Origin: a virus
DNA: 47,071 nucleotides
Virus record (IMG/VR): IMGVR_UViG_3300009441_000013
Span: 1-47,071 of that record
Direction: 5' to 3' (one strand)
Of this stretch, positions 2,168 through 35,337 are shown piece after piece. The position numbers and the translations under genes are program-made. The notes beneath the pieces were generated by a model, which saw only the letters and a program-made list of their open reading frames with translations, was not told the origin of the DNA and did no database searches. How positions within the stretch are numbered: the stretch's first letter is position 1; each line of letters begins with the position of its first letter.

Positions 2168-2260
2168 ATGATTTGGTTATTAATTTTTATTGTAATTGCA
2201 GGATATTTATTAGCAGAACATAAGAACATTATAATGTATTTAAAGGATAAAATTAAATGA
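2168..2260 (+). CDS. Tiny single-pass membrane protein
   Basis: 30 residues beginning MIWLLIFIVIAGYLL, a clear transmembrane segment, then a short basic tail ending in KDKIK. A good AAGGAG ribosome binding site lies 8 nt before the ATG, and the stop overlaps the next start as ATGA; both support real translation. Function unknown. Confidence 0.6.
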   Translation: MIWLLIFIVIAGYLLAEHKNIIMYLKDKIK

Positions 2261-3810
2261 AGTGTGATAAGATTTTAATAGTTGGAGGAGGCTCCGCTGG
2301 GTGGATGACTGCTTCAACTTTAATTAGAGCTTTTCCTGATAAAGATATAACTGTATTAGAATCACCTAAAATTCCAACAATATCAGTTGGTGAAAGTACA
2401 ATCTCAAAAGTTAAACAATGGACAAAATTTCTCGGAATAGAGGATAAAGAATTTTTAAAACATACCGACGGTACTATTAAATTTAGTATTAAGTTTACAG
2501 ACTTTAATGGAAAAGACGAGGCGGCATTTCATTATCCTTTTGGTGCAGTTGTAACAGAAGGAACTAAATTAAGGTATAATGATTGGTGGATGAAAAAGGC
2601 ATATAATCCAGGACTACCAGTTTCAGATTATGCTGATTGTTTTTCTCCTGTTATGGCATTAATTAATCAAAGTAAGGGTGCTAAAAACTTCCGTGGTTTT
2701 GATAATGATAAAGATTCTGCTTATCAGTTTGACGCAATTAAATTTGGTATATGGTTGAGGGATCATTATTGTATCCCTAGAGGTGTCAAACATATTCAAG
2801 AAGATATAAGTACCGTAGAACAAGATGAAGAAGGTATAGTTTCTTTGAACGGCAAACATAAAGCAGATTTATATGTTGATTGTACAGGTTTTAAATCAAT
2901 GCTTTTAGGAGGTGCATTAAAAGTACCTTTTGAACCTATCCCTAAACTACCAAATAATAAAGCGTGGGTAACCAAGATTCCTTATATAGATAAAATTAAA
3001 GAGATGAAATCTTATACCAATTGTACAGCAATAGAGAATGGTTGGGTATGGAATATACCATTATGGAGTAGAGTTGGAACTGGCTATGTTTATTCAGATG
3101 AATTTGTTTCTGACAAGGACGCATTAAAAGAATTTAAAAGTCATTTAAAGAAAAATGGTGCTAATGTAGAAAAATTAGAATTTAGAAATCTTAAAATGAG
3201 GTGTGGTATACACGAAAGATTATTTGTAAAAAATGTTGTTGCTATAGGTTTAGCTAATGGATTTGTTGAACCATTAGAAAGTAATGGTTTGTTTTCAGTA
3301 CACGAATTTTTAATAGAACTTGTAAGAAATTTAAGAAGAGGTGAAATTACACAATGGGACAAAGACAACTTTACGTTTGCCTGTAAATCTATCTATTATG
3401 GGTTTGTTGAATTTGTTGGTTTGCATTATGCTTTATCAACAAGAAATGATACACCATATTGGAAAGCAAATAACAGTAGAGATTGGGAAGAAAGTTTATA
3501 TAATCTGAAACCTAAAGCATTCCTTGGATATTTACAAGCTGCTTTACAAAGAAACAAATATTGGGAGTTTCCTATTGATTCTCCTGAAAGTGCTGGTAAT
3601 AGCGGATTACATTTTATAGCGGCTGGTTTCAATTGGGCACCAGATGATTTACCTAATCTAATATATCATACACATAAGAATAAGGAAGAAATAAAAGAAA
3701 TAATGGAACCGTATTTTAAGAAATTAGATGTACGTAAAGAAATGTGGAATAAAGAAGTTGAAAAGTATCAAAGTTACCACGACTTTATACTAGAAAATTA
3801 TTATAAGTAA
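2257..3810 (+). CDS. Flavin-dependent (tryptophan-type) halogenase, VirX1-like
   Basis: 517 residues matching the FADH2-dependent tryptophan halogenase family. The FAD-binding GGGSAGW motif is at residues 10-16. The catalytic lysine that would form the haloamine is K75 (in TIKFSIKF, aligned to K79 of PrnA). The diagnostic WxWxIP motif is WVWNIP at 263-268. The VEPLESNG stretch around 337-344 carries the active-site glutamate (E341 by alignment). The family uses HOX to halogenate electron-rich substrates. A cyanophage member (VirX1) is known to iodinate diverse small molecules; whether this protein does the same is inference. No dedicated flavin reductase gene is visible nearby. It starts in an ATGA overlap with the tiny membrane ORF. 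Confidence 0.93.
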   Translation: MKCDKILIVGGGSAGWMTASTLIRAFPDKDITVLESPKIPTISVGESTISKVKQWTKFLGIEDKEFLKHTDGTIKFSIKFTDFNGKDEAAFHYPFGAVVTEGTKLRYNDWWMKKAYNPGLPVSDYADCFSPVMALINQSKGAKNFRGFDNDKDSAYQFDAIKFGIWLRDHYCIPRGVKHIQEDISTVEQDEEGIVSLNGKHKADLYVDCTGFKSMLLGGALKVPFEPIPKLPNNKAWVTKIPYIDKIKEMKSYTNCTAIENGWVWNIPLWSRVGTGYVYSDEFVSDKDALKEFKSHLKKNGANVEKLEFRNLKMRCGIHERLFVKNVVAIGLANGFVEPLESNGLFSVHEFLIELVRNLRRGEITQWDKDNFTFACKSIYYGFVEFVGLHYALSTRNDTPYWKANNSRDWEESLYNLKPKAFLGYLQAALQRNKYWEFPIDSPESAGNSGLHFIAAGFNWAPDDLPNLIYHTHKNKEEIKEIMEPYFKKLDVRKEMWNKEVEKYQSYHDFILENYYK

Positions 3811-4959: not shown

Positions 4960-5608
4960 ACCAACAGCTGATATGTCTAATATCAATCGTGATACACGAC
5001 TAGAAACCTTGCCACAAGCTACACTAGATACTTTTGCTAAGAATAGTATGATGGTGTATAATTGGGCAATGCCAGTTGAAGATTGTAAAATGATTATTCA
5101 GAAGTTTGAACAGGTACTCCGCCACGATATATCCTTGATGGATGTAGTTGATACTGAAAATAAAAAATTAATTGAAATTAATATAGACAAATATGGTGAT
5201 TTTTGGAAAGAACCTAGAGAAAAATTTATGGGAATGATGGAAGAGTATGTGGATAGATTTAAGCAAAATTTGAATATAGAAACATCCGATTTTCCACTAG
5301 TAATTGATAGAGAAAACATAAAAATAAAAAAATATTTACCTAATGACAAAGATGAAATTTTTAAAGTTGATTCAGAAAAAAGATTTGTAGCTTTTATTTT
5401 ATATCTTAATGATGTTGAAGAAGGTGGTGAAACACATCTACCAAAACAGGAAATAATGATTTCACCAAGAGCAGGAAGAATGTTAATGTTTCCTCCTTTT
5501 TGGACTCACCCACACGCTGAATTAAAACCAGTTAAAGAACCAAAATATATTATGATGTCTTATTTGCATTGTAGAGATACGACTGAAAAAGGGAATGGGA
5601 AAAAATAA
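4949..5608 (+). CDS. 2OG-Fe(II) oxygenase-like (prolyl 4-hydroxylase type), first iron ligand altered
   Basis: 219 residues. The C-terminal double-stranded beta-helix core is clear: FILYLNDVEEGGETHLP, then SPRAGRMLMFPPFWTHPHAE, then PKYIMMSYLH. The distal iron histidine is H187 (or H189) and the 2OG-binding basic residue is probably K199. The normal HxD motif, expected before RFVAFILYLND, reads K139-V-D141, so the first histidine is replaced by lysine. The protein may be inactive, use another ligand, or have changed chemistry. It overlaps the ParB-like gene and joins the SET gene by TAATG. Confidence 0.82.
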   Translation: MENRPTADMSNINRDTRLETLPQATLDTFAKNSMMVYNWAMPVEDCKMIIQKFEQVLRHDISLMDVVDTENKKLIEINIDKYGDFWKEPREKFMGMMEEYVDRFKQNLNIETSDFPLVIDRENIKIKKYLPNDKDEIFKVDSEKRFVAFILYLNDVEEGGETHLPKQEIMISPRAGRMLMFPPFWTHPHAELKPVKEPKYIMMSYLHCRDTTEKGNGKK

Positions 5609-5919
5609 TGTATCAACCATTACCAGAAGGATTAATAATTAAAAAATCTTCTATACAAGGTCAAGGATTATTTACAACAAAGTTTATTGATAAGAATGTA
5701 AACTTAGGATTAAGTCATATTGTTGTTAATGATGAAATTATAAGAACTCCATTAGGTGGTCATATTAATCATAATGATGAGGCAAATTGTATAAAGGTGA
5801 GAGGTGTATTAGGTTTAGAAGCATTAGACAAGAATAAGTATTTTTTATTTACAACACGACCTATAAAAGCGTGGGAAGAAATAACACTTAAATATACTTT
5901 TTATAAGGTGAAAAAATGA
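5608..5919 (+). CDS. SET-domain protein (putative protein lysine methyltransferase)
   Basis: 103 residues, a minimal SET domain. The start SSIQGQGLFTTKFI matches the SET opening (s.i.G.GlfA), GGHINHNDEANC matches the SAM-binding NHs..pNc signature, and TRPIKAWEEITLKYTFY matches the closing strand that ends in a conserved tyrosine. SET proteins transfer methyl groups from SAM to lysines. No pre-SET, post-SET or cysteine cluster is present. A target (host transcription or translation protein, or a phage protein) cannot be inferred. It starts by TAATG and ends in an ATGA overlap. Confidence 0.8.
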   Translation: MYQPLPEGLIIKKSSIQGQGLFTTKFIDKNVNLGLSHIVVNDEIIRTPLGGHINHNDEANCIKVRGVLGLEALDKNKYFLFTTRPIKAWEEITLKYTFYKVKK

Positions 5920-6665
5920 GCAAATTAACTGTTATATTACCAGCGGCAGGAAAGGGTACTAGATTAAATCTACCATATCCAAAAGAAATATTACGATTAG
6001 ATAATGATAATGCTTTAATTGATAATTGTTTTAATTTTTTTAGAGATTATGGAAGAAAAGATATTGAATTTATAGTTATTATTAATGAAAACAAACCAGA
6101 ACTATTAACTTATTTAGCAAAATATAAAAATAAATTTAACATATCATTTATCTATCAGGATCCAAATGAGAAAGAATATACAGGTGCAATTAAAAGTGCT
6201 AGACCTTTATTTGGAGAACATAATATAGTTTTATTGCCTGATACATTAATGACATTGCAACCAAATCAAGATTTATATACTTTAATTATGTCAGCATTAC
6301 AAGAAACAGGATTCACATTTTTATATAAAGAAGAAATTGATGAGGATGATTTAATATTAAAAACTAAAGGTGCATTAAATATAAATGCTGAAGGTTTAGT
6401 TTTAGATTATTGCGATAAACCTAAAGATAATAAATTAGGTTTATACAATGCGTTTTGGTGTGCGTTTGGATTTAGAAGACGAGTATTTGATAGTTGTATG
6501 AATTTTATGGAAAAATCTACATTAAAACAAAAAGTAAATGTTAAAGATATAAAAACAACACCTATCTATGGTAGTAAAGCAATTAAAGTAAAAGACTATG
6601 TTGATTTAGGAACTTGGAGTGAAATAAGGAGATTATTGATAAATTATGAAAAAGATAATAACTGA
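5916..6665 (+). CDS. Sugar-phosphate nucleotidyltransferase (GT-A fold)
   Basis: 249 residues. The N-terminus LPAAGKGTRLNLPYPKEILRL is the nucleotide-binding GxGTR...PKe signature of RmlA/GlmU-type pyrophosphorylases, which make NDP-sugars from sugar-1-phosphates. LLPDTLM near residue 108 holds the metal-binding aspartate. It opens the sugar-nucleotide cluster running to 18.5 kb. Base and sugar specificity cannot be read from the sequence. Confidence 0.85.
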   Translation: MSKLTVILPAAGKGTRLNLPYPKEILRLDNDNALIDNCFNFFRDYGRKDIEFIVIINENKPELLTYLAKYKNKFNISFIYQDPNEKEYTGAIKSARPLFGEHNIVLLPDTLMTLQPNQDLYTLIMSALQETGFTFLYKEEIDEDDLILKTKGALNINAEGLVLDYCDKPKDNKLGLYNAFWCAFGFRRRVFDSCMNFMEKSTLKQKVNVKDIKTTPIYGSKAIKVKDYVDLGTWSEIRRLLINYEKDNN

Positions 6666-7218
6666 CTGTGATGGCGTCCTTTTAGATTGGTGTTTTGCTT
6701 TTGACATTTGGATGAGTGAACAAGGATATACTAGAATGCCTGAAACGGATCATTACTTTAGTCAATCAAAACGATATAACATACCTGAAAAAGAAGCATT
6801 AGAACAAGTCAATTTATTTAATCAAACAGGAGTTTTAGGATTTGTACCAGCATATAAAGATAGTGTTGAGTATGTAACTAGATTAGCAAGAGAAGGTTAT
6901 AGATTTGATGTTATTACTATGATTGGACCTGACAAGTATGCTCATAAGTTAAGAAAAACTAATTTACGATATCTATTTGGTGATGTATTTGATGAAATAT
7001 ATTGTGCAGGAGATTTTAAACAACCTAAAAAAGAAATTTTAGAAGAACGATATAAAGGAACAAATTATGTTTGGATTGAGGATAGAGTTGATTATGCAAT
7101 GCAAGGTGATGAAGTCGGTTTAAATACATTTATGATGGATCATCCTTATAATAGAGAATATAAAGGACAACGAGTGAAGAATTGGAAAGAATTATATGAC
7201 ACCACATTTAGAAGCTAA
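6646..7218 (+). CDS. HAD-superfamily hydrolase, 5'-nucleotidase-like
   Basis: 190 residues. It opens with TDCDGVLLDW, the HAD motif I with D7 nucleophile and D9 general acid; VITMIG is a plausible motif II, KQPKKEIL a plausible motif III lysine region, and WIEDRVDYA motif IV. The overall layout resembles small 5'(3')-deoxyribonucleotidases of phages. It overlaps the purine nucleoside phosphorylase gene downstream by 23 nt, so a nucleotide-to-nucleoside-to-base route is plausible. Confidence 0.8.
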   Translation: MKKIITDCDGVLLDWCFAFDIWMSEQGYTRMPETDHYFSQSKRYNIPEKEALEQVNLFNQTGVLGFVPAYKDSVEYVTRLAREGYRFDVITMIGPDKYAHKLRKTNLRYLFGDVFDEIYCAGDFKQPKKEILEERYKGTNYVWIEDRVDYAMQGDEVGLNTFMMDHPYNREYKGQRVKNWKELYDTTFRS

Positions 7219-7861
7219 AATTGGTGATTATGCTGATATAGTATTATTACCTGGTGATCCGTTAAGAGCAAAATGGATTGCAGAAACATATTTAGATGAT
7301 GTAAGACAAGTTAATAGTGTGAGAAATATGTTAGGTTTTACAGGAACATATAAAGGTAAAGCTATATCAGTACAAGGTGGTGGTATGGGTATGCCTTCAA
7401 ACGCAATTTACATACACGAACTTTATAATACGTATAATGTAAAAACTATTATAAGAGTGGGTAGTTGTGGTGGTATTCATAAAAATTTAAATGTAGGTGA
7501 TGTAGTTGTAGCTACAAGAGCAATTACAGACAACGCAATGATGAATGTATCTGTCGGTGAAGGATCAACTGACTTGTTAAATGCTTATATGAAAGTGGCA
7601 CCTAAAAATACTATGCAAGGATATATTAAGTCTAGTGATTGGTTTTATAATCCAAATAAAGATTGGTGGAAAGATGAAAAAATTGCATTAGCAGTTGAAA
7701 TGGAAACACATATATTATATACTTTAGCAAATAAATTTAATAAGAAAGCATTATCAGTATGTACAGTTGCAGACCATTTTGAAAAACCTGAAGATATGAC
7801 TTCTAAAGAAAGAGAAACTAGTTTTAAAGCAATGATAGAAAGTATATTACAAATATGTTAG
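7196..7861 (+). CDS. deoD: Purine nucleoside phosphorylase, DeoD type
   Basis: 221 residues, closely following E. coli DeoD (239 residues): TPH at the N-terminus (H4), DIVLLPGDPLRAKWIAETYL, the phosphate loop at RVGSCGG, the ribose-binding VEMET (E168/E170), and CTVADH with catalytic D193. It reversibly splits purine (deoxy)nucleosides to base and (deoxy)ribose-1-phosphate. Its frame starts inside the upstream HAD gene. The about 18-residue shortening falls in the middle, between RVGSCGG and VEMET, where DeoD is variable. Confidence 0.93.
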   Translation: MTPHLEAKIGDYADIVLLPGDPLRAKWIAETYLDDVRQVNSVRNMLGFTGTYKGKAISVQGGGMGMPSNAIYIHELYNTYNVKTIIRVGSCGGIHKNLNVGDVVVATRAITDNAMMNVSVGEGSTDLLNAYMKVAPKNTMQGYIKSSDWFYNPNKDWWKDEKIALAVEMETHILYTLANKFNKKALSVCTVADHFEKPEDMTSKERETSFKAMIESILQIC

Positions 7862-8823
7862 TTTTTGTAACACCTAAAAGAACTGCCAGAGTGCCTTATT
7901 CTTATAGAACAAGAGCAAATATAGTAGCGGAGAATATGTTGGATAGTAAAGTCACAGATGATATTAAAACTTTACAAAAAAGTGATGTTGCAGTATTAGG
8001 TAAAAGACATACTAGAGAGGATGCTGAACATTGTATAAAACACGATATTAAATATATTGTTGATGTTGCAGATGATAAGTTTATGATGCTTAAACATTGG
8101 TATTATACAATACCAAAAGCAACAGTAGTTACTACAACTTGCGATAATTTAAGAACAATTATATTAGATGAAGTTGGTAAAGATTCTGTTATTATACCTG
8201 ACCCTACTGAAAGAAAAAGAGGTGTGCCAAAGTTTGCAGTAAAAGAAAGTATGAAAGCATTTTATTATGGTGCAGAAGGTAATTATAGAAAAATAGATTG
8301 GCTTAAAGTTAAATCAACTTTAAATTCTTTAAAAAAAACTAAAGTTGATATTATGACAAATAAACCAAAAGACCCACCTAAAGCATACAAATATTTAAAT
8401 AAATATGGACAATTTTGGTTAAAACCAGAAGAAAAAAAAGAATTAGAAGAAGAAGGTCTTAAAGAATATCATAGTTTAATAGATTGGAACTTTGATAAAC
8501 AAGAGCAGTTAGTTAATGAATCAGATTTTGTTTTATTACCAGTTACTTCTGATAGAGAATCAAGATGTAAAGGAAATAATAGACCTATTGACGCATTACA
8601 ACAAGGTAGAATAGTATTAACAAATCCAGGTATAAAAAGTTATGAAGATTTAAAAAATTACTTATACATAGGTGATTTTCATACAACATATAGCCTAATG
8701 CTTGAAAATCCTGAACAAGTGTTATACAAAATTAAAAATGCTCAAATGCATATAGATAAACATTATACACCAAAAGCGATAGCAAATAAGTGGAAACTAG
8801 TATATGACAGACTACATAAATAG
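7855..8823 (+). CDS. Glycosyltransferase, GT-B/GT4-like
   Basis: 322 residues. Features of GT-B enzymes are a VADDKF segment, VTTTCDNLR, and an IPDPTE linker before the second domain; the C-terminal half has DFVLLPVTSD followed by NNRPIDALQQGRIVLT, which fits the acceptor/donor switch region of GT4 enzymes. It probably transfers a sugar during polysaccharide or envelope glycan synthesis. It overlaps deoD by 7 nt and is followed by the sugar dehydratase. Confidence 0.7.
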   Translation: MLVFVTPKRTARVPYSYRTRANIVAENMLDSKVTDDIKTLQKSDVAVLGKRHTREDAEHCIKHDIKYIVDVADDKFMMLKHWYYTIPKATVVTTTCDNLRTIILDEVGKDSVIIPDPTERKRGVPKFAVKESMKAFYYGAEGNYRKIDWLKVKSTLNSLKKTKVDIMTNKPKDPPKAYKYLNKYGQFWLKPEEKKELEEEGLKEYHSLIDWNFDKQEQLVNESDFVLLPVTSDRESRCKGNNRPIDALQQGRIVLTNPGIKSYEDLKNYLYIGDFHTTYSLMLENPEQVLYKIKNAQMHIDKHYTPKAIANKWKLVYDRLHK

Positions 8824-8838
8824 AGATAAGGAGTGATT

Positions 8839-9993
8839 ATGAAATATCCATTAGCTAGTGATACTTGGGATCATAAAGAGTTACACGCAATACAAGAAGT
8901 CATAAAAAGTGGACGATATACAATGGGTCCATACGTCAAGAAATTTGAGCAAGAGTTTGCCAAATATTTTAGATGTAATGAAGCAGTTATGGTTAATAGT
9001 GGTTCAACTGCCAATCTATTAATGATAGCATTGTTAAAATTAAAATATGAAAAAGGTGGTAATATAATTGTACCTGCTGTTTCTTGGTCAACAACTTTCT
9101 TTCCATTACAACAATACGGTTTCAAATTAAATTTTGTAGATGTAGATAGAGAAACTTTAAATATAGACCCTAATAAAGTTAGAGAAGCAATTAATGACGA
9201 TACTTGCGCTATATTTGCAGTTAATCTTTTAGGTAACTCCTGTGACCATTATTCATTAATGCATATTGCTAGAGAACACAAACTTATGGTAATAGAGGAC
9301 AATTGTGAGAGTTTAGGTGCTCAGACATATAACTTTGAATATTGTGGAACGTTTGCTGATTTAGGTAGTTTTTCTTTTTTCTTTTCACATCACTTACAAA
9401 CAATGGAAGGTGGTATGATTGCCTGTAGAAATAAAGATGACGCAGATTATTTAAGGTCATTAAGAGCACACGGTTGGTGTAGAGATTTACCAGACGATAA
9501 TAAAATTTATAAGAAGACTGGAGATAAGTTTAAAGATAGTTTTACGTTTGTAACTCCAGGTTATAGTGTAAGACCATTAGAAATGAGTGGTGCAATAGGT
9601 AGTGTGCAACTTAAAAAAGAAATGGAAATGAGAACTCAAAGAATTCGTAATGCTAAATATTTTCAACATAAATTTAAAGATAATAAAGATATTTTATTAC
9701 AGAAAGAAATAGGAACGTCTAGTTGGTTTGGATTCTCACTAGTATTACAAAACAATTTAAAAGGTAAACGTGATGAAGTTGTTAAGAAACTTACAGAAAA
9801 TGGAGTAGAGTGTAGACCTATTGTTGCAGGTAATTTTATGAACAATCCTGTAATAGATTATCTTGACTATTATAATAATAGTTGTCCCAATGCAGATTAT
9901 ATCCATAACAATGGTTTGTTTATAGGAAATGATATAAGAGATTTAAAAGAAAACATTGATATGGTATACAATATAATAAAGGAGATAAAGTGA
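8839..9993 (+). CDS. PLP-dependent sugar 3-dehydratase (ColD/RfbH-like), DegT/DnrJ/EryC1 family
   Basis: 384 residues from ATG 8839; AAGGAG at 8828-8833 gives normal spacing and the GTG at 8833 is part of it. The fold is DegT/DnrJ/EryC1: MVNSGSTANLL binds PLP phosphate and VIEDNCESLGA carries the PLP-pairing aspartate. The PLP lysine that aminotransferases have at SF.P.K is replaced by histidine: GSFSFFFSHHLQTMEGG, with H184 in the lysine position. Histidine there is the hallmark of 3-deoxygenating enzymes (ColD, RfbH/E1). With gmd downstream this points to GDP-4-keto-3,6-dideoxymannose formation. Confidence 0.85.
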   Translation: MKYPLASDTWDHKELHAIQEVIKSGRYTMGPYVKKFEQEFAKYFRCNEAVMVNSGSTANLLMIALLKLKYEKGGNIIVPAVSWSTTFFPLQQYGFKLNFVDVDRETLNIDPNKVREAINDDTCAIFAVNLLGNSCDHYSLMHIAREHKLMVIEDNCESLGAQTYNFEYCGTFADLGSFSFFFSHHLQTMEGGMIACRNKDDADYLRSLRAHGWCRDLPDDNKIYKKTGDKFKDSFTFVTPGYSVRPLEMSGAIGSVQLKKEMEMRTQRIRNAKYFQHKFKDNKDILLQKEIGTSSWFGFSLVLQNNLKGKRDEVVKKLTENGVECRPIVAGNFMNNPVIDYLDYYNNSCPNADYIHNNGLFIGNDIRDLKENIDMVYNIIKEIK

Positions 9994-9994
9994 A

Positions 9995-10639
9995 ATGTTT
10001 GAAGAGATAACTGAAGAGTGGGATAAATTTTTTAAACAACACCCAACTGGTGGACCTTGGGATTATGAAATGGGTTTTAAAAAGTTACAAGATGACCACG
10101 TTGTTGATTTTATAAAGTATTATAATTTTGAAAAAAATCTAAAGGTTTTAGATTGTGGATGTGCAGATGGTAGAAATTCTGAATATCTTATAAATGAGGG
10201 GTTTGAGGTAACAGGTGTAGATTTTTCACAAACGGTGATAGAAAGAACTCAAAAGCGGTTACCCAAAGGAAAATTTCTTACTGGAGATGTAAGAAAATTA
10301 GATAAGATTGAAGAAAATAGTTTTGATTTTCTTATTGACGCTGGTGCTTTACACGTAAATTATCCACAAGATACTATATCAATTATAAAAGAGTATCATA
10401 GAATATTAAAACCTTCAGGAAAAATGTTTATTAGAGTTTTCAATAAGGAGGACGATACACCTAATCCTATTTTTACTGTAAATAAAGACTTAACTATGCC
10501 TGTATTTGGATATAGTGAGTTTGAATTTAGTAATCACATTAAAAATTATTTTAATGTTAAACATAAAATATATGATTCTCTTTATGGTTCTCACGGTCAA
10601 GGATGTAATTATTATTATTTGGAAAGGAAAAGTAAATGA
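9995..10639 (+). CDS. Class I SAM-dependent methyltransferase
   Basis: 214 residues. Motif I is VLDCGCADGRNSEYL (about residues 50-64), followed by VTGVDFS with the acidic residue that binds SAM ribose, FLTGDVRKL, and IKEYHRILKPSGKMFIRVF as the post-motif region. The methylated substrate is unknown; the setting between two deoxysugar genes suggests a sugar or glycan O/C/N-methyltransferase. It starts 2 nt after the dehydratase and overlaps gmd by 4 nt. Confidence 0.85.
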   Translation: MFEEITEEWDKFFKQHPTGGPWDYEMGFKKLQDDHVVDFIKYYNFEKNLKVLDCGCADGRNSEYLINEGFEVTGVDFSQTVIERTQKRLPKGKFLTGDVRKLDKIEENSFDFLIDAGALHVNYPQDTISIIKEYHRILKPSGKMFIRVFNKEDDTPNPIFTVNKDLTMPVFGYSEFEFSNHIKNYFNVKHKIYDSLYGSHGQGCNYYYLERKSK

Positions 10640-11691
10640 AAAGAGCATTAATAACAGGTATAACTGGACAAGACGGCGCCTATCTTGCTAAATTATTATT
10701 AGAAAAAGGTTATAAAGTATTTGGTGGACAAAGACGAAGTACATCACCAAAACATTGGCGATTAGATGAAATGGGTATTACAGATAAGATTGAGTTTGTT
10801 GAACTTGATGTAATAGACCAAGCGAATATACGTAGAGCAATAGAAGAAACTAAACCTGACGAAGTGTATAATTTAGCTGCTCAATCATTTGTATGGCTAT
10901 CATTTAAACAACCAGAACTTGCTACGTTAGTAGACGCTATGGGTTGTTTAAGAATACTAGAAAGTATAAGACAGGTTAATCCTAAAATAAAATTCTATCA
11001 AGCAAGTACAAGTGAAATGTTTGGTAAAGTATTTGAAACTCCACAAAAAGAAACAACAAAATTTTGGCCTAGAAGTCCATACGGTGTTGCGAAACTATTT
11101 GCTCATCACATAACAATTAACTATAGAGAAGCATATGGTATGTTTGCTTGTTGTGGTTTATTATTCAATCACGAAAGTGCCCATAGAGGTGAGGACTTTG
11201 TAACTAGAAAGATATCAAAAGGTTTAGCAAAATGGATGAAAGATAGTACTCCTATTGTATTAGGAAATTTAACAGCAAAAAGAGATTGGGGACACGCTGA
11301 GGATTTTGTTAGAGGTATGTGGCAAATGCTACAACACGATAAACCAGATGACTATGTATTAGCAACTGGTGAAATTCATAATGTAAAACAATTTTGTGAT
11401 ATGGCATTAGATTATAAAGAAATAAAACATTATTGGAAAGATAATGAGTGTTTTACAGATGGTAATTTATTAATCATTACTACTGATAAGAAACATTTAA
11501 GACCCGCTGAGGTAGATGTATTACAAGGGGATGCTACGAAAGCAAGAGAAGTACTTGGTTGGGAACATAAACATAATGTACAAAGTTTAATGAAAGAAAT
11601 GGTAGACGCAGATTTAGAACGAGAAGGATTAGATAGTTCAACAGTTGTATCTGAAATGAGTATATTTGATTCACCGGAGAAATGTATATAA
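10636..11691 (+). CDS. gmd: GDP-mannose 4,6-dehydratase
   Basis: 351 residues, normal for the family. The NAD(P)-binding motif is TGITGQDGAYL (residues 7-17). The SDR catalytic set is present: S/T at QASTSEMFG (124-126), Y149 and K153 in SPYGVAK. The NHES..RG.DFVTRKI and TAKRDWGHAEDFVR segments are typical of GMD. It converts GDP-D-mannose to GDP-4-keto-6-deoxy-D-mannose, precursor of fucose, rhamnose, perosamine and colitose. The neighbouring ColD-like enzyme favours a 3,6-dideoxy sugar. Confidence 0.95.
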   Translation: MKRALITGITGQDGAYLAKLLLEKGYKVFGGQRRSTSPKHWRLDEMGITDKIEFVELDVIDQANIRRAIEETKPDEVYNLAAQSFVWLSFKQPELATLVDAMGCLRILESIRQVNPKIKFYQASTSEMFGKVFETPQKETTKFWPRSPYGVAKLFAHHITINYREAYGMFACCGLLFNHESAHRGEDFVTRKISKGLAKWMKDSTPIVLGNLTAKRDWGHAEDFVRGMWQMLQHDKPDDYVLATGEIHNVKQFCDMALDYKEIKHYWKDNECFTDGNLLIITTDKKHLRPAEVDVLQGDATKAREVLGWEHKHNVQSLMKEMVDADLEREGLDSSTVVSEMSIFDSPEKCI

Positions 11692-12458
11692 TGGAACCTC
11701 AAGTACCATCTACCGGAACTATGTTTTGTGCAACATTTAATAAAAGATTATATGATGAGTATGCTCATCAATTAATTGACACATACGTGGCAACAAAACA
11801 AGTAGTACCTTTGTATGTTTTTGTTGAAGATAATCCAAAACTATATCCTCCAAGACGTAATGTATATTATAAGAATTTATTTGATTATGAACCAGATTTA
11901 AAAGATTTTGTTCAAAGAAATAAACATAGAACAGCAAATAATTTTTATGAAGAAGCGATAAGATTTAGTTATAAAGTATTTGCTCAATCAGCAGCAAGAA
12001 ATTGGGCAACTAAAATATATTATGTAGATAGTGATTGTAAGTTTATGGGCACAATACCTTCTACTTGGTATCAGAACTGTTTACCAAATATGACATTTAT
12101 GTCATTTTATAATAGACCACAACAATATACAGAAACAGGTTTTGTTGCATTTAATTCAAACAGTTTAATAACTACTGAATTTTTTGAAGAATATAAAAAC
12201 TGGTATATAACAGATAAAGTATATTCAATACAGAAATTAGGAAAGAATTTTTGGACAGATTGCCATACATTGGACGCTACTAGGCAAATGTTTAAAGATG
12301 ATCCCAGGTATAGTGAAAAACCACTAGGGGATGGTAGAAATGGACATATAATGGCAAGAGATACGTTTCTTAATCCATATATAGACCATAGAAAAGGTAA
12401 AAGAAAACAACAAGCAAATAGTCCAGAATGGAGAAAACACACAAATGAACCAAAATGA
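11691..12458 (+). CDS. Glycosyltransferase-like protein, GT-A type
   Basis: 255 residues from the TAATG-linked ATG at 11691; an in-frame ATG at 11682 is the alternative. YYVDSDCKF holds a DxD-like motif (D113, D115) that would bind the metal and NDP-sugar, set after a region resembling the nucleotide-binding half of GT-A enzymes. The C-terminus is basic. The donor and acceptor are unknown. It lies in the sugar cluster directly after gmd. Confidence 0.6.
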   Translation: MEPQVPSTGTMFCATFNKRLYDEYAHQLIDTYVATKQVVPLYVFVEDNPKLYPPRRNVYYKNLFDYEPDLKDFVQRNKHRTANNFYEEAIRFSYKVFAQSAARNWATKIYYVDSDCKFMGTIPSTWYQNCLPNMTFMSFYNRPQQYTETGFVAFNSNSLITTEFFEEYKNWYITDKVYSIQKLGKNFWTDCHTLDATRQMFKDDPRYSEKPLGDGRNGHIMARDTFLNPYIDHRKGKRKQQANSPEWRKHTNEPK

Positions 12459-12654
12459 TGACCAAGCAAGAGCAGAAGCCGCTAGTTATGAAAATGAATC
12501 TTCAATACAAAGAACGGTTACAATACCTTTAGAAGAATATGATAAGTTAAAGGAACAAAAACACCATATTACGGATCCTGATATGATTGCGATTATAGAT
12601 AAAATTGGAGAATTAATAAGAGCATTGCGTAAAAATATAAGAATGCCATTATAA
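12445..12654 (+). CDS. Small charged protein, function unknown
   Basis: 69 residues, helical and charged, with no export signal. It overlaps the upstream glycosyltransferase by 14 nt and is linked to the next gene by TAATG, so translation is probably coupled. No motif recognised. Confidence 0.6.
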   Translation: MNQNDDQARAEAASYENESSIQRTVTIPLEEYDKLKEQKHHITDPDMIAIIDKIGELIRALRKNIRMPL

Positions 12655-32609: not shown

Positions 32610-32762
32610 ATGAGTATAAAAAAGAAAATTGAAGTATTAAAAGAAACAATCAAGTGGTTCAGAACGCAAATTGAACCACACGATTGTGGATGGATGCACA
32701 CAACAATAGATGGTATCAAACACCGAATAAGTGATTTGAGAAAACAATTGAGGAGAAAATAA
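32610..32762 (+). CDS. Small basic protein, probably leaderless
   Basis: 50 residues, basic and helical (KKKIEVLKETIKWFRTQIE), ending in a K/R-rich tail. The ATG has no upstream SD and sits six bases after the -10 box. It is linked by TAATG to the nuclease gene, which would be translated by coupling; AGGAG lies near its end. Confidence 0.65.
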   Translation: MSIKKKIEVLKETIKWFRTQIEPHDCGWMHTTIDGIKHRISDLRKQLRRK

Positions 32763-33454
32763 TGAGTAGTAAATTTACGTGGGTTGATATAGACAAAACA
32801 AAACTTCCAAACACAAAAGGTAGACGTATAAACGGTTTCCGTTTCTATGATGTAGAGGGTAAGAATTATCCTTCTATCACAACTGTGCTAGGTGTTCAGA
32901 AAAAAGAAGGTCTTGAAAGATGGCGAAAAGCAGTTGGTGAAGAAGCAGCCAATTGGGAAATGGGTAGAGCGGCACGTAGAGGCAAAGCAACTCACACACT
33001 TGTTGAACAGTATATCAAAGGCGAAACACCTAGTATTAGGGACGTGTTACCTTTAGGTATGTTTAGATTGATGTTGCCTTATCTAGCTCAAATTAATAAT
33101 ATTCATTTATTGGAAGAAATAATGTATAGTCATAAGTTGACCATTGCAGGTCAAGTTGATTGTGTTGCTGAGTACAATGGCAAGTTATCTGTAATAGATT
33201 TCAAGACAGCAAATAAAGAACGTAAAGAAGATTGGATAGAAAACTATTATATTCAAACTTGTGCTTATGCAATTATGTATGAAGAGCTATTCGGTAAACC
33301 GATAGAACAATTAGTTATCTTAATGGCAGGTGAAGACGGTACAATGCGTTCATTTGTCCAACCAAGAAAACTATTTGAACCTAAATTGCAGAAATCTATT
33401 GAGTACTTTTATAAATACTATAACGAACTTAACAAAGATAAAATCAAGCAATAA
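32762..33454 (+). CDS. PD-(D/E)XK exonuclease (RecB/Cas4-like)
   Basis: 230 residues. The catalytic stretch is GQVDCVAEYNGKLSVIDFKTANK: G-x-V-D, then xIDFKTA, the RecB-type motif with D and K. RRGKATHTLVEQYIKGE upstream gives the histidine-containing motif I. The enzyme would cut or resect DNA, as in recombination or host DNA breakdown. Marine T4-like phages have a similar exonuclease. Confidence 0.83.
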   Translation: MSSKFTWVDIDKTKLPNTKGRRINGFRFYDVEGKNYPSITTVLGVQKKEGLERWRKAVGEEAANWEMGRAARRGKATHTLVEQYIKGETPSIRDVLPLGMFRLMLPYLAQINNIHLLEEIMYSHKLTIAGQVDCVAEYNGKLSVIDFKTANKERKEDWIENYYIQTCAYAIMYEELFGKPIEQLVILMAGEDGTMRSFVQPRKLFEPKLQKSIEYFYKYYNELNKDKIKQ

Positions 33455-33499: not shown

Positions 33500-33904
33500 A
33501 TGTTTAAAAAAATACTATCAATAATATTTGGAATCGTACTCTTAATGAGTATGGCTCCCGCTTTAGCCGGTCACGAAGAAGGCGGAGAATTACCTAAAGA
33601 TTATGAACCAGCGCCAAATGTAGGTCCAAATTTATATTGGTTACAAATGCCTGTAATATGTGGTAGTAGTGAGGATGTGATTGCATATATTCAAAAAAGG
33701 AAATTTGCATTAGTTAATGTTTCATTTGGTAAAGAAAAAGCACACCCAGATGGTAAACCAGTTTTTATAGTACAATATTATGTTGATCCTACATACACAC
33801 AATCACTTGTAGTTATGACAACATTAAATGGTGTTGAATCTTGTATGTTATACAAGTCATTTGATTTAAAATTTGCCAATCCTAAAAAGGGTATTGGTTC
33901 GTAA
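33500..33904 (+). CDS. Secreted protein, function unknown
   Basis: 134 residues. Signal peptide MFKKILSIIFGIVLLMSMAPALA, cleaved after ALA. The mature part has two cysteines (VICGSSEDVI, VESCMLYKS) about 75 residues apart. A TATAAATA at 33410-33417, in the previous gene, might be a late promoter for it. It ends directly before the tmRNA acceptor piece. Confidence 0.7.
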   Translation: MFKKILSIIFGIVLLMSMAPALAGHEEGGELPKDYEPAPNVGPNLYWLQMPVICGSSEDVIAYIQKRKFALVNVSFGKEKAHPDGKPVFIVQYYVDPTYTQSLVVMTTLNGVESCMLYKSFDLKFANPKKGIGS

Positions 33905-34166
33905 GGAATTTGACGTTGAAGGTTAGATAATAGTTGGAGAAGACGAGAGTTCGAATCTCTCCATCTCCACCATAAACACATTGATTTCAAGTGTGCTTAT
34001 GGGGGATGACTGGAATTGATTCACAATCAAAACTAACTGGAGTTAGATAGTAGGTTGCTACTTTAAAGGACAAAACTATAAAGGATAACGCAAGTTATGC
34101 TCTTGCTGCCTAGTTAATAGGTAGACGGCGTTTGTGTAGTTTCCGTGGCAACAGAAAAACTACACA
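33905..34166 (+). ncRNA. ssrA: Circularly permuted (two-piece) tmRNA
   Basis: Acceptor piece first: T-arm GAGAG-UUCGAAU-CUCUC (33945-33961), 3' acceptor strand CATCTCC (33962-33968), discriminator A and encoded CCA (33970-33972). A 29-nt intervening segment follows, which can form a hairpin (ACAC-A-TTGA / TCAAGTGT). The coding piece begins GGGGATG (34002-34008), which pairs with CATCTCC over all 7 bp (one G-U). ACTGGAATTGA follows as the tmRNA D-loop region. The tag reads ...KDNASYALAA then TAG at 34111-34113, after paired segments that may form the first pseudoknot. A 10-bp hairpin (34133-34142 with 34157-34166) ends the piece. The order 3' half before 5' half is the two-piece type known in alphaproteobacteria and some cyanobacteria. 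Exact 5' and 3' ends of the pieces are not settled. Confidence 0.9.
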
Positions 34167-34167
34167 C

Positions 34168-34196
34168 TTTACATTTAAGAAAAAATATGATATAGT
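34168..34196 (+). promoter_or_regulatory. Sigma70-like promoter P5, leaderless geometry
   Basis: TTTACA at 34168-34173, 17-nt spacer, TATAGT at 34191-34196, then six bases to ATG 34203. This is the same geometry as P4. It starts just after the tmRNA hairpin. Confidence 0.78.
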
Positions 34197-34202
34197 ATAC
34201 GT

Positions 34203-34421
34203 ATGAACTCAAAAGAATTTTCATTGATTATAGAGGATGTAGTAAAGAAGCATAAAGATATCTCATATGTGGACGCCATAGTCCATTATTGTGAAGAAAA
34301 CAGTATTGAAGTTGAAACCACAGCACGTCTAATTACAAAACAACTCAAAGAAAAAATACAACATCAATCAGCACAGTTAAATTTATTAAAAGGTGGTAGA
34401 CCAGGAGTATTACCAACTTAA
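34203..34421 (+). CDS. 33: gp33-like late transcription coactivator
   Basis: 72 residues. FSLIIEDVVKKHKDISYVDAIVHYCEENSIEVETTARLITKQLKEKIQHQSAQLNLLK resembles the gp33 coactivators of T4-like cyanophages. gp33 links the RNA polymerase to the sliding clamp (gp45) and is needed for TATAAATA late promoters, of which several are visible here. The ATG has no SD and lies six bases from the -10 box. Small size leaves some doubt. Confidence 0.72.
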   Translation: MNSKEFSLIIEDVVKKHKDISYVDAIVHYCEENSIEVETTARLITKQLKEKIQHQSAQLNLLKGGRPGVLPT

Positions 34422-34545: not shown

Positions 34546-34712
34546 GTGATGATGAGTTTGGTAGTATCAGCGAAGAAGAATTTAATAAGAAACATATGAA
34601 AGCACTTGCACAAGCAGATCCACATAATTTTAAAAAGAAGAAAAAGAGAAGAATTAAGAAAGAAAAGCCTAATCCTTTTCACGCAAGAGCAATAGATGGA
34701 TTTGGAGAATAA
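34542..34712 (+). CDS. Small basic protein, function unknown
   Basis: 56 residues: an acidic start, then AQADPHNFKKKKKRRIKKEKPNPF, a highly basic region suited to nucleic-acid binding. ATGA start. Its C-terminal codons include the GGAG used by thyX. No family recognised. Confidence 0.55.
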   Translation: MSDDEFGSISEEEFNKKHMKALAQADPHNFKKKKKRRIKKEKPNPFHARAIDGFGE

Positions 34713-34713
34713 T

Positions 34714-35337
34714 ATGGATATAGAACTTATAGATAAATTAGGTAATGACCTATCAGTAGTAAATGCTGCTAGAGTATCATTTGCAAAAAGAAAAGATGAA
34801 CTTGATGAAAAGGACGATAAGTTAATTAAGTATTTAGCAAAACACGGACATTGGTCACCTTTTGCTCACGGCTTTTTATCATTTAGAATTAAAGCACCTA
34901 TCTTTGTTGCAAGACAATTAGTTAAACATCAAGTAGGGTTAAGTTGGAACGAAGTGAGTAGAAGATATGTAGATGATAAACCAGAATTCTATATACCTTT
35001 TATGTGGAGAAAGAGACCACCTGAAAGTATTAAACAAGGTTCAAGTGAAGAAGAGGTTGAATTTGATATTATGGAGTTAATAGATTTGTGTAAAGGAACT
35101 TATAACTATATGTTAGAGGAAGGTATTGCACCTGAAATGGCACGTATGGTATTACCTCAATGTATGATGACCGAGTGGATATGGTCAGGTAGTGTATATG
35201 CATTTAGTAGAGTGTGTAATCAAAGAAATAAAAGTAATGCTCAAGCAGAAACGAGAATGGTAACCTATCCACTATCAAAACATATAAAAGACCATTTTCC
35301 AATTTGTTATAAGTATTTGATATCAAATCAAAGATAG
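34714..35337 (+). CDS. thyX: Flavin-dependent thymidylate synthase
   Basis: 207 residues from ATG 34714 (GGAG at 34704-34707). The signature region reads RQLVKHQVGLSWNEVSRRYVD, a diverged form of the ThyX RHRxxSxNExSxR motif with one extra residue between the KH and S-x-N-E. EMARMVLPQCMMTEWIWSG and RVCNQRNKSNAQAETR carry the C-terminal FAD/dUMP residues. It makes dTMP from dUMP with FAD, NADPH and methylenetetrahydrofolate. With NrdAB it supplies phage DNA synthesis. Confidence 0.93.
   Translation: MDIELIDKLGNDLSVVNAARVSFAKRKDELDEKDDKLIKYLAKHGHWSPFAHGFLSFRIKAPIFVARQLVKHQVGLSWNEVSRRYVDDKPEFYIPFMWRKRPPESIKQGSSEEEVEFDIMELIDLCKGTYNYMLEEGIAPEMARMVLPQCMMTEWIWSGSVYAFSRVCNQRNKSNAQAETRMVTYPLSKHIKDHFPICYKYLISNQR

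Follow-up and report, generated by a model that had tools for sequence, protein, structure and literature searches.

The interval 33905-34166 of a 47-kb virus record, analysed here as one window of 47,071 nucleotides, raises the question of whether a phage carries a two-piece tmRNA (ssrA) gene of its own and, if so, what such an RNA would do. An earlier note on this DNA had read the interval as a circularly permuted tmRNA of alphaproteobacterial type and had named ARAGORN and covariance models among its checks, both of which detect a permuted tmRNA. ARAGORN run on the window predicts it at 33879-34204 with the tag DNASYALAA. In cmscan searches of Rfam, the matches to RF04321 (tmRNA_permuted; 84.1 bits, E 9.1e-15, gathering 47) and RF01849 (alpha_tmRNA; 63.3 bits, E 3.9e-15, gathering 50) lie above the gathering scores, and the RF01849 match spans all 355 model positions. 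The alphaproteobacterial assignment is borne out as well, alpha_tmRNA being the top-scoring model of the tmRNA clan in the window and in every homologous tmRNA scanned. The folding z-score is -3.9, and the tmRNA strand is more stable than all 200 shuffles. Judged by its sequence, the T4-like phage has at 33905-34166 a complete gene for a permuted two-piece tmRNA of the alphaproteobacterial kind.

The gene sits in a conserved order, exoA - hypothetical - ssrA - gp33 - thyX, and all features described below are on the plus strand. The synteny anchors are the PD-(D/E)XK exonuclease gene exoA (32762-33454; Pfam PF12705, 72.6% identical to that of Pelagibacter phage Mosig) and thyX, for flavin-dependent thymidylate synthase (34696-35337; PF02511). 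Upstream of the RNA lies a conserved hypothetical ORF (33500-33904) with its stop codon just before it; the ORF is present in relatives with and without the tmRNA, and no Pfam family matched it. The downstream neighbour is the late-transcription coactivator gp33 (34203-34421; PF16805, E 2.5e-23), with tblastn matches to gp33 of Mosig and of cyanophages. The nearest cultured relatives are the Pelagibacter phages Mosig (exoA 72.6%, gp33 62% identical) and HTVC008M. By these sequence comparisons the phage is T4-like, Kyanoviridae-like and marine, and related to both; a SAR11-like host is likely by analogy with these relatives. Elsewhere in the window (2257-3810 and 5600-12500), accessory genes include a Tryptophan-halogenase-family gene (PF04820) and a sugar-nucleotide/aminotransferase run with an NTP transferase, a DegT/DnrJ/EryC1 family member and a nucleotide-sugar dehydratase-like ORF.

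The anatomy of the RNA can be followed along the sequence. Two P2-type helices close the tRNA-like domain, their 5' strands being UUUGAC (33909-33914) and GUUAG (33922-33926) and their 3' strands CUAAC (34033-34037) and GUUAGA (34042-34047); RNAalifold and pair counts over 23 homologues revealed compensatory changes in both. The T-arm (33945-33961) consists of the stem strands GAGAG (33945-33949) and CUCUC (33957-33961) around the loop UUCGAAU (33950-33956), and in the 23 homologues all of its 5 pairs are paired in 100% of cells, with two-sided changes in 4. The acceptor 3' strand CAUCUCC (33962-33968) is followed by ACCA (33969-33972), which comprises the discriminator A73 and an encoded CCA, as seen in the sequence and by ARAGORN and Rfam. 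The order is permuted, since this CCA-bearing strand (33962-33972) comes before the acceptor 5' strand GGGGAUG (34002-34008), where the mature coding piece is predicted to start; the two strands form 7/7 pairs including G3-U70. Evidently, the T-arm, CCA acceptor strand, 29-nt spacer and GGGGATG at 34002 that the earlier note had listed are all in place. The alanine-identity wobble G3-U70 is found in the window and in 23/23 aligned homologues, where the acceptor helix is 100% paired. In a wider search set the wobble was counted in 96/96, a figure partly built into the search pattern; the search regex likewise fixed in part the 7/7 acceptor pairs and the CTCC ends of that set, and the evidence used here is the 23-homologue alignment instead. 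A reduced D-arm region, ACUGGAAUUGAU (34009-34020), follows in the Rfam alignment without an anticodon arm.

The tag frame predicted by ARAGORN (34084-34113) reads GAU AAC GCA AGU UAU GCU CUU GCU GCC UAG, that is, DNASYALAA-stop, with AUAAAG before it. The tag had previously been given as KDNASYALAA; the nine residues to the stop stand, while the K does not, as it comes from the AAG codon preceding the resume codon GAU, both by ARAGORN and in aligned relatives. The tag ends in a hydrophobic Ala-Ala type terminus. The RNA closes with a 3'-terminal hairpin, UGUGUAGUUU / AAACUACACA around an AACAGAA loop (34133-34166), whose last base coincides with the end coordinate 34166 proposed before. Among 70 distinct homologues this hairpin has 39 distinct stems with 6-11 contiguous pairs and one invariant loop, AACAGAA; the mean number of pairs is 7.9 vs 4.7 when arms are swapped between sequences. 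The P2 helix, T-arm and terminal GGCAACAGAA hairpin are thus all present in the window tmRNA. The pseudoknot PK1 before the tag is absent from the output of RNAalifold, a program which predicts no pseudoknots.

Is the gene maintained, or is it a relic of host DNA, derived from an att site or from a prophage that was excised imprecisely, and functionless in the phage? Bacterial tmRNA genes often serve as integration sites (PMC11915505), which gives the relic explanation its ground. ThyX and exoA were used to scan viral contigs, which led to 160 loci; among the loci first collected from these scans, ARAGORN reported 96 with a tmRNA, comprising 40 distinct sequences. With loci from a later spacer-pattern search added, a tmRNA occupies 97/116 distinct exoA-gp33 intervals, which is an upper estimate as some intervals were picked by the tmRNA spacer. 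The remaining 19/116 related intervals are without it, and the tmRNA is therefore dispensable in the group. From 23 distinct phage tmRNAs, RNAalifold recovered the P2, T-arm, acceptor, spacer and terminal helices without any structure input. Paired cells in this alignment amount to 96.4% vs 79.3% in shuffled alignments and 42-56% with slid partners; 19/34 pairs show two-sided compensatory change, and the covariation is 0.447 vs 0.141. Since pairing is kept and compensated, the gene is under selection and not a relic. The strong compensatory evolution, together with a complete gene in a fixed place between core T4-like genes in most intervals, contradicts a functionless remnant, an account we find hardly credible. 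The sequence comparisons thereby establish both the anatomy and its maintenance, as seen in gene order, acceptor, T and P2 helices, G3-U70, encoded CCA, tag, terminal hairpin and compensatory change. Another observation concerns near-identical tmRNA cores that bear unlike 3'-terminal hairpins, of a GTGTAGT type or an TGCCTGAC type (L041, L096, L116 and relatives). This contrast suggests recombination inside the tmRNA gene.

The region between the terminal hairpin and gp33 bears on a different function. A sigma-70-type promoter, TTTACA-17-TATAGT with an extended -10 (TG), was found by scanning at 34168-34196 and ends 6 nt short of the gp33 start codon; a scan of this kind can be expected to give some matches by chance. 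It recurs at the same 6-nt distance from -10 to ATG in 28/75 distinct gp33 upstreams, and because of this recurrence gp33 is likely read from the conserved promoter as a leaderless mRNA. The tmRNA-less relatives instead have, between a promoter and gp33, a leader that forms a hairpin and then a ribosome-binding site. This leader hairpin (e.g., GGTGGTGAAAACTAGCGTTAGTAACCACC) contains an AGUA/GAA loop-E-like pair in either orientation and was seen in the exoA-gp33 loci L139, L141, L142, L148 and L161, mostly tmRNA-less; a hairpin of the same type also stands behind the tmRNA of L160. No Rfam family matched it, and it is possibly an undescribed cis-regulatory RNA. A promoter placed directly after the terminal hairpin, and a different hairpin leader in relatives that lack the tmRNA, could mean that the structured 3' end is a cis element which insulates or terminates upstream transcription ahead of the gp33 promoter. 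Nevertheless, the terminal hairpin has no T-run and is not called as a terminator, and a cis role leaves the conserved acceptor, T-arm, P2 and tag unexplained. We consider it highly improbable.

Between the two acceptor strands lies the 29-nt spacer (33973-34001), which is predicted to be removed. With the CA of CCA it forms the hairpin CAUAA-A-CACAUU / AAGUGUG-C-UUAUG in both fold and alignment. Its fold z is -3.1 in the window, equal to the mean for 45 distinct spacers, and the helix is 92.8% paired in the 23 homologues. The pattern CTCCACCATAAACA-N5-35-TTATGGGG was found in 111 viral stretches vs a single one among the genome contigs from 84,980 species. Since this pattern prescribes the window-type bases at the spacer ends, part of the conservation seen at these ends is built in, which does not hold for the absence from bacteria; a bacterial spacer differing by a base or two would be missed by the scan. 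The sole genome-contig match (NYSS01000096.1, L164), in a Planctomycetota MAG, bears a tmRNA of this kind together with the phage ORF that also precedes the gene in the window, and the MAG holds its own standard tmRNA elsewhere. Probably, NYSS01000096.1 is a phage contig binned into the MAG. The phage-only spacer signature points to a long-resident phage lineage; a recent transfer from the host is another origin that the phage tmRNA may have had. We put forward tentatively, with more doubt than confidence, that marine T4-like phages possess a long-resident, virus-specific two-piece tmRNA lineage with a conserved precursor spacer hairpin (CCA-UAAACAC...GUGUGCUUAU-GGGG), essentially absent from sequenced bacteria and perhaps selected for processing, or for controlled maturation, during infection.

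Taken together, the best explanation is very probably that the gene specifies a selected phage two-piece tmRNA, host-processed and host-charged, which would tag stalled proteins and most likely provide extra rescue capacity. From what is established for tmRNAs, the 29-nt spacer hairpin would be excised by RNase P and 3' processing enzymes of the host, and the acceptor and coding pieces would stay joined by base pairing. The RNA would be charged with alanine by host AlaRS and delivered by host SmpB and EF-Tu to ribosomes stalled on truncated mRNA. The DNASYALAA tag would then route unfinished proteins to host ClpXP-type proteases. The most likely benefit would be added rescue capacity while infection degrades host mRNA. 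No SmpB was found in the 13 phage records tested, several of which are fragments, and for this reason the function would rely on the host.

The same SmpB result could also be taken to favor a decoy or inhibitor, that is, a phage RNA which draws SmpB, AlaRS or ribosomes away from host tmRNA and thereby reduces trans-translation by the host. There is a precedent in mycobacteriophage DS6A, for which a tag-less tmRNA-like RNA was reported as a trans-translation inhibitor (PMC11915505). However, the DS6A form is without a tag frame, whereas here a full frame is found with -ALAA type ends and varied codons, and the resume-codon region and all helices are intact. As a decoy would need no tag, the kept frame makes this role very unlikely. 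Loci with the spacer signature and no ARAGORN call were also considered as tag-less decoys; this was rejected, recognisable tags being present in most loci complete enough for that region.

The homologous tags, which include ANESYALAA, GEGNFALAA and ANEQFALAA among others, differ in their N-terminal half (DNAS, ANES, GEGN, ANEQ and others), while the end -A(L/M/I)AA is kept despite many codon spellings. The variable half is what would be expected if the phage tag, by differing from the host tag, altered the speed of degradation in either direction, or the protease or adaptor used, for example, for amino-acid recycling or for sparing phage proteins. Nevertheless, it is the C-terminal ALAA that is read by ClpXP, and this part is conserved; drift, moreover, would likewise yield tag variation. 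Retargeted tagging appears rather unlikely to us, even with amino-acid recycling among the roles proposed in PMC9004378. Extra rescue capacity remains the more likely benefit. The significance of the gene lies in the comparative evidence of covariation, synteny and 96 tmRNA-positive loci, by which the phage trans-translation RNA is a selected and common trait of pelagic T4-like phages and not a curiosity. The phage-only spacer hairpin, the variable tag half and the dependence on host SmpB are offered as features for testing.

The rarity of phage tmRNA that the earlier note had assumed could not be upheld, as two-piece tmRNAs of marine phages are published (PMC9004378), the Mosig copy is annotated and most of the distinct intervals above are positive. 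In the part of PMC9004378 available to us, phage Melnitz is described as having a two-piece ssrA that precedes the transcription coactivator gene, and two-piece tmRNAs are described for other marine phages too. There, tmRNA was reported in 402/18,146 phage genomes with 133 unique structures, of which 53 were suggested to be two-piece; marine or aquatic phages account for 50 of those 53. The paper proposes roles in maintenance or amino-acid recycling, so that ideas akin to rescue and retargeting had already been raised. What is added here to that part of the paper is the conserved phage spacer hairpin, the candidate leaderless gp33 mRNA and the absence of SmpB in the tested phage records.

Comparison with the cultured phages places the window gene among its relatives. 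The annotated SsrA of Mosig EXVC030M (MT647606, 111467-111805) is likewise permuted, of alpha_tmRNA type, in the order exoA - hypothetical - ssrA - gp33 - thyX and with the same spacer core; it differs in its tag (GEDNFALAA), its helix sequences and a longer spacer. The ssrA of the Methylophilales phage Melnitz (MZ577095, 44732-45184) shares the permuted order, the alpha type, the position upstream of the gp33/thyX region and the TAAACAC spacer start, but has a longer tag, ANDNYVPVDYALAA, and a spacer of ~140 nt. In this spacer (L282 44780-44990) the conserved hairpin is kept, and its loop has a small ORF inserted, MFKWLSKTRLVVITRDYFRERN..., with GGAG before its ATG. Melnitz also has a glutamine riboswitch (52.8 bits) behind ssrA, unlike the window, which gave no Rfam riboswitch match; none was found around Mosig ssrA at E<=10. 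HTVC008M had been taken to be without tmRNA from lack of annotation in its GenBank record (KC465899), a reading rejected when covariance-model search found a copy (145161-145370; L163 4072-4281). This copy is permuted and lies between exoA and gp33 as in the window, whereas its tag is ANFNEYALAA, its spacer helix is kept with other bases and extra genes precede gp33. Compared with the alphaproteobacterial two-piece tmRNA (RF01849), the window tmRNA is phage-encoded, no SmpB was found with it, and its tag and 3' region are shorter than the model consensus, while the order, P2 and the terminal hairpin with its GGCAACAGAA loop are the same. The phage two-piece tmRNA is thus already published and known in the closest cultured phages, and the gene in the window is a well-supported further example of it.
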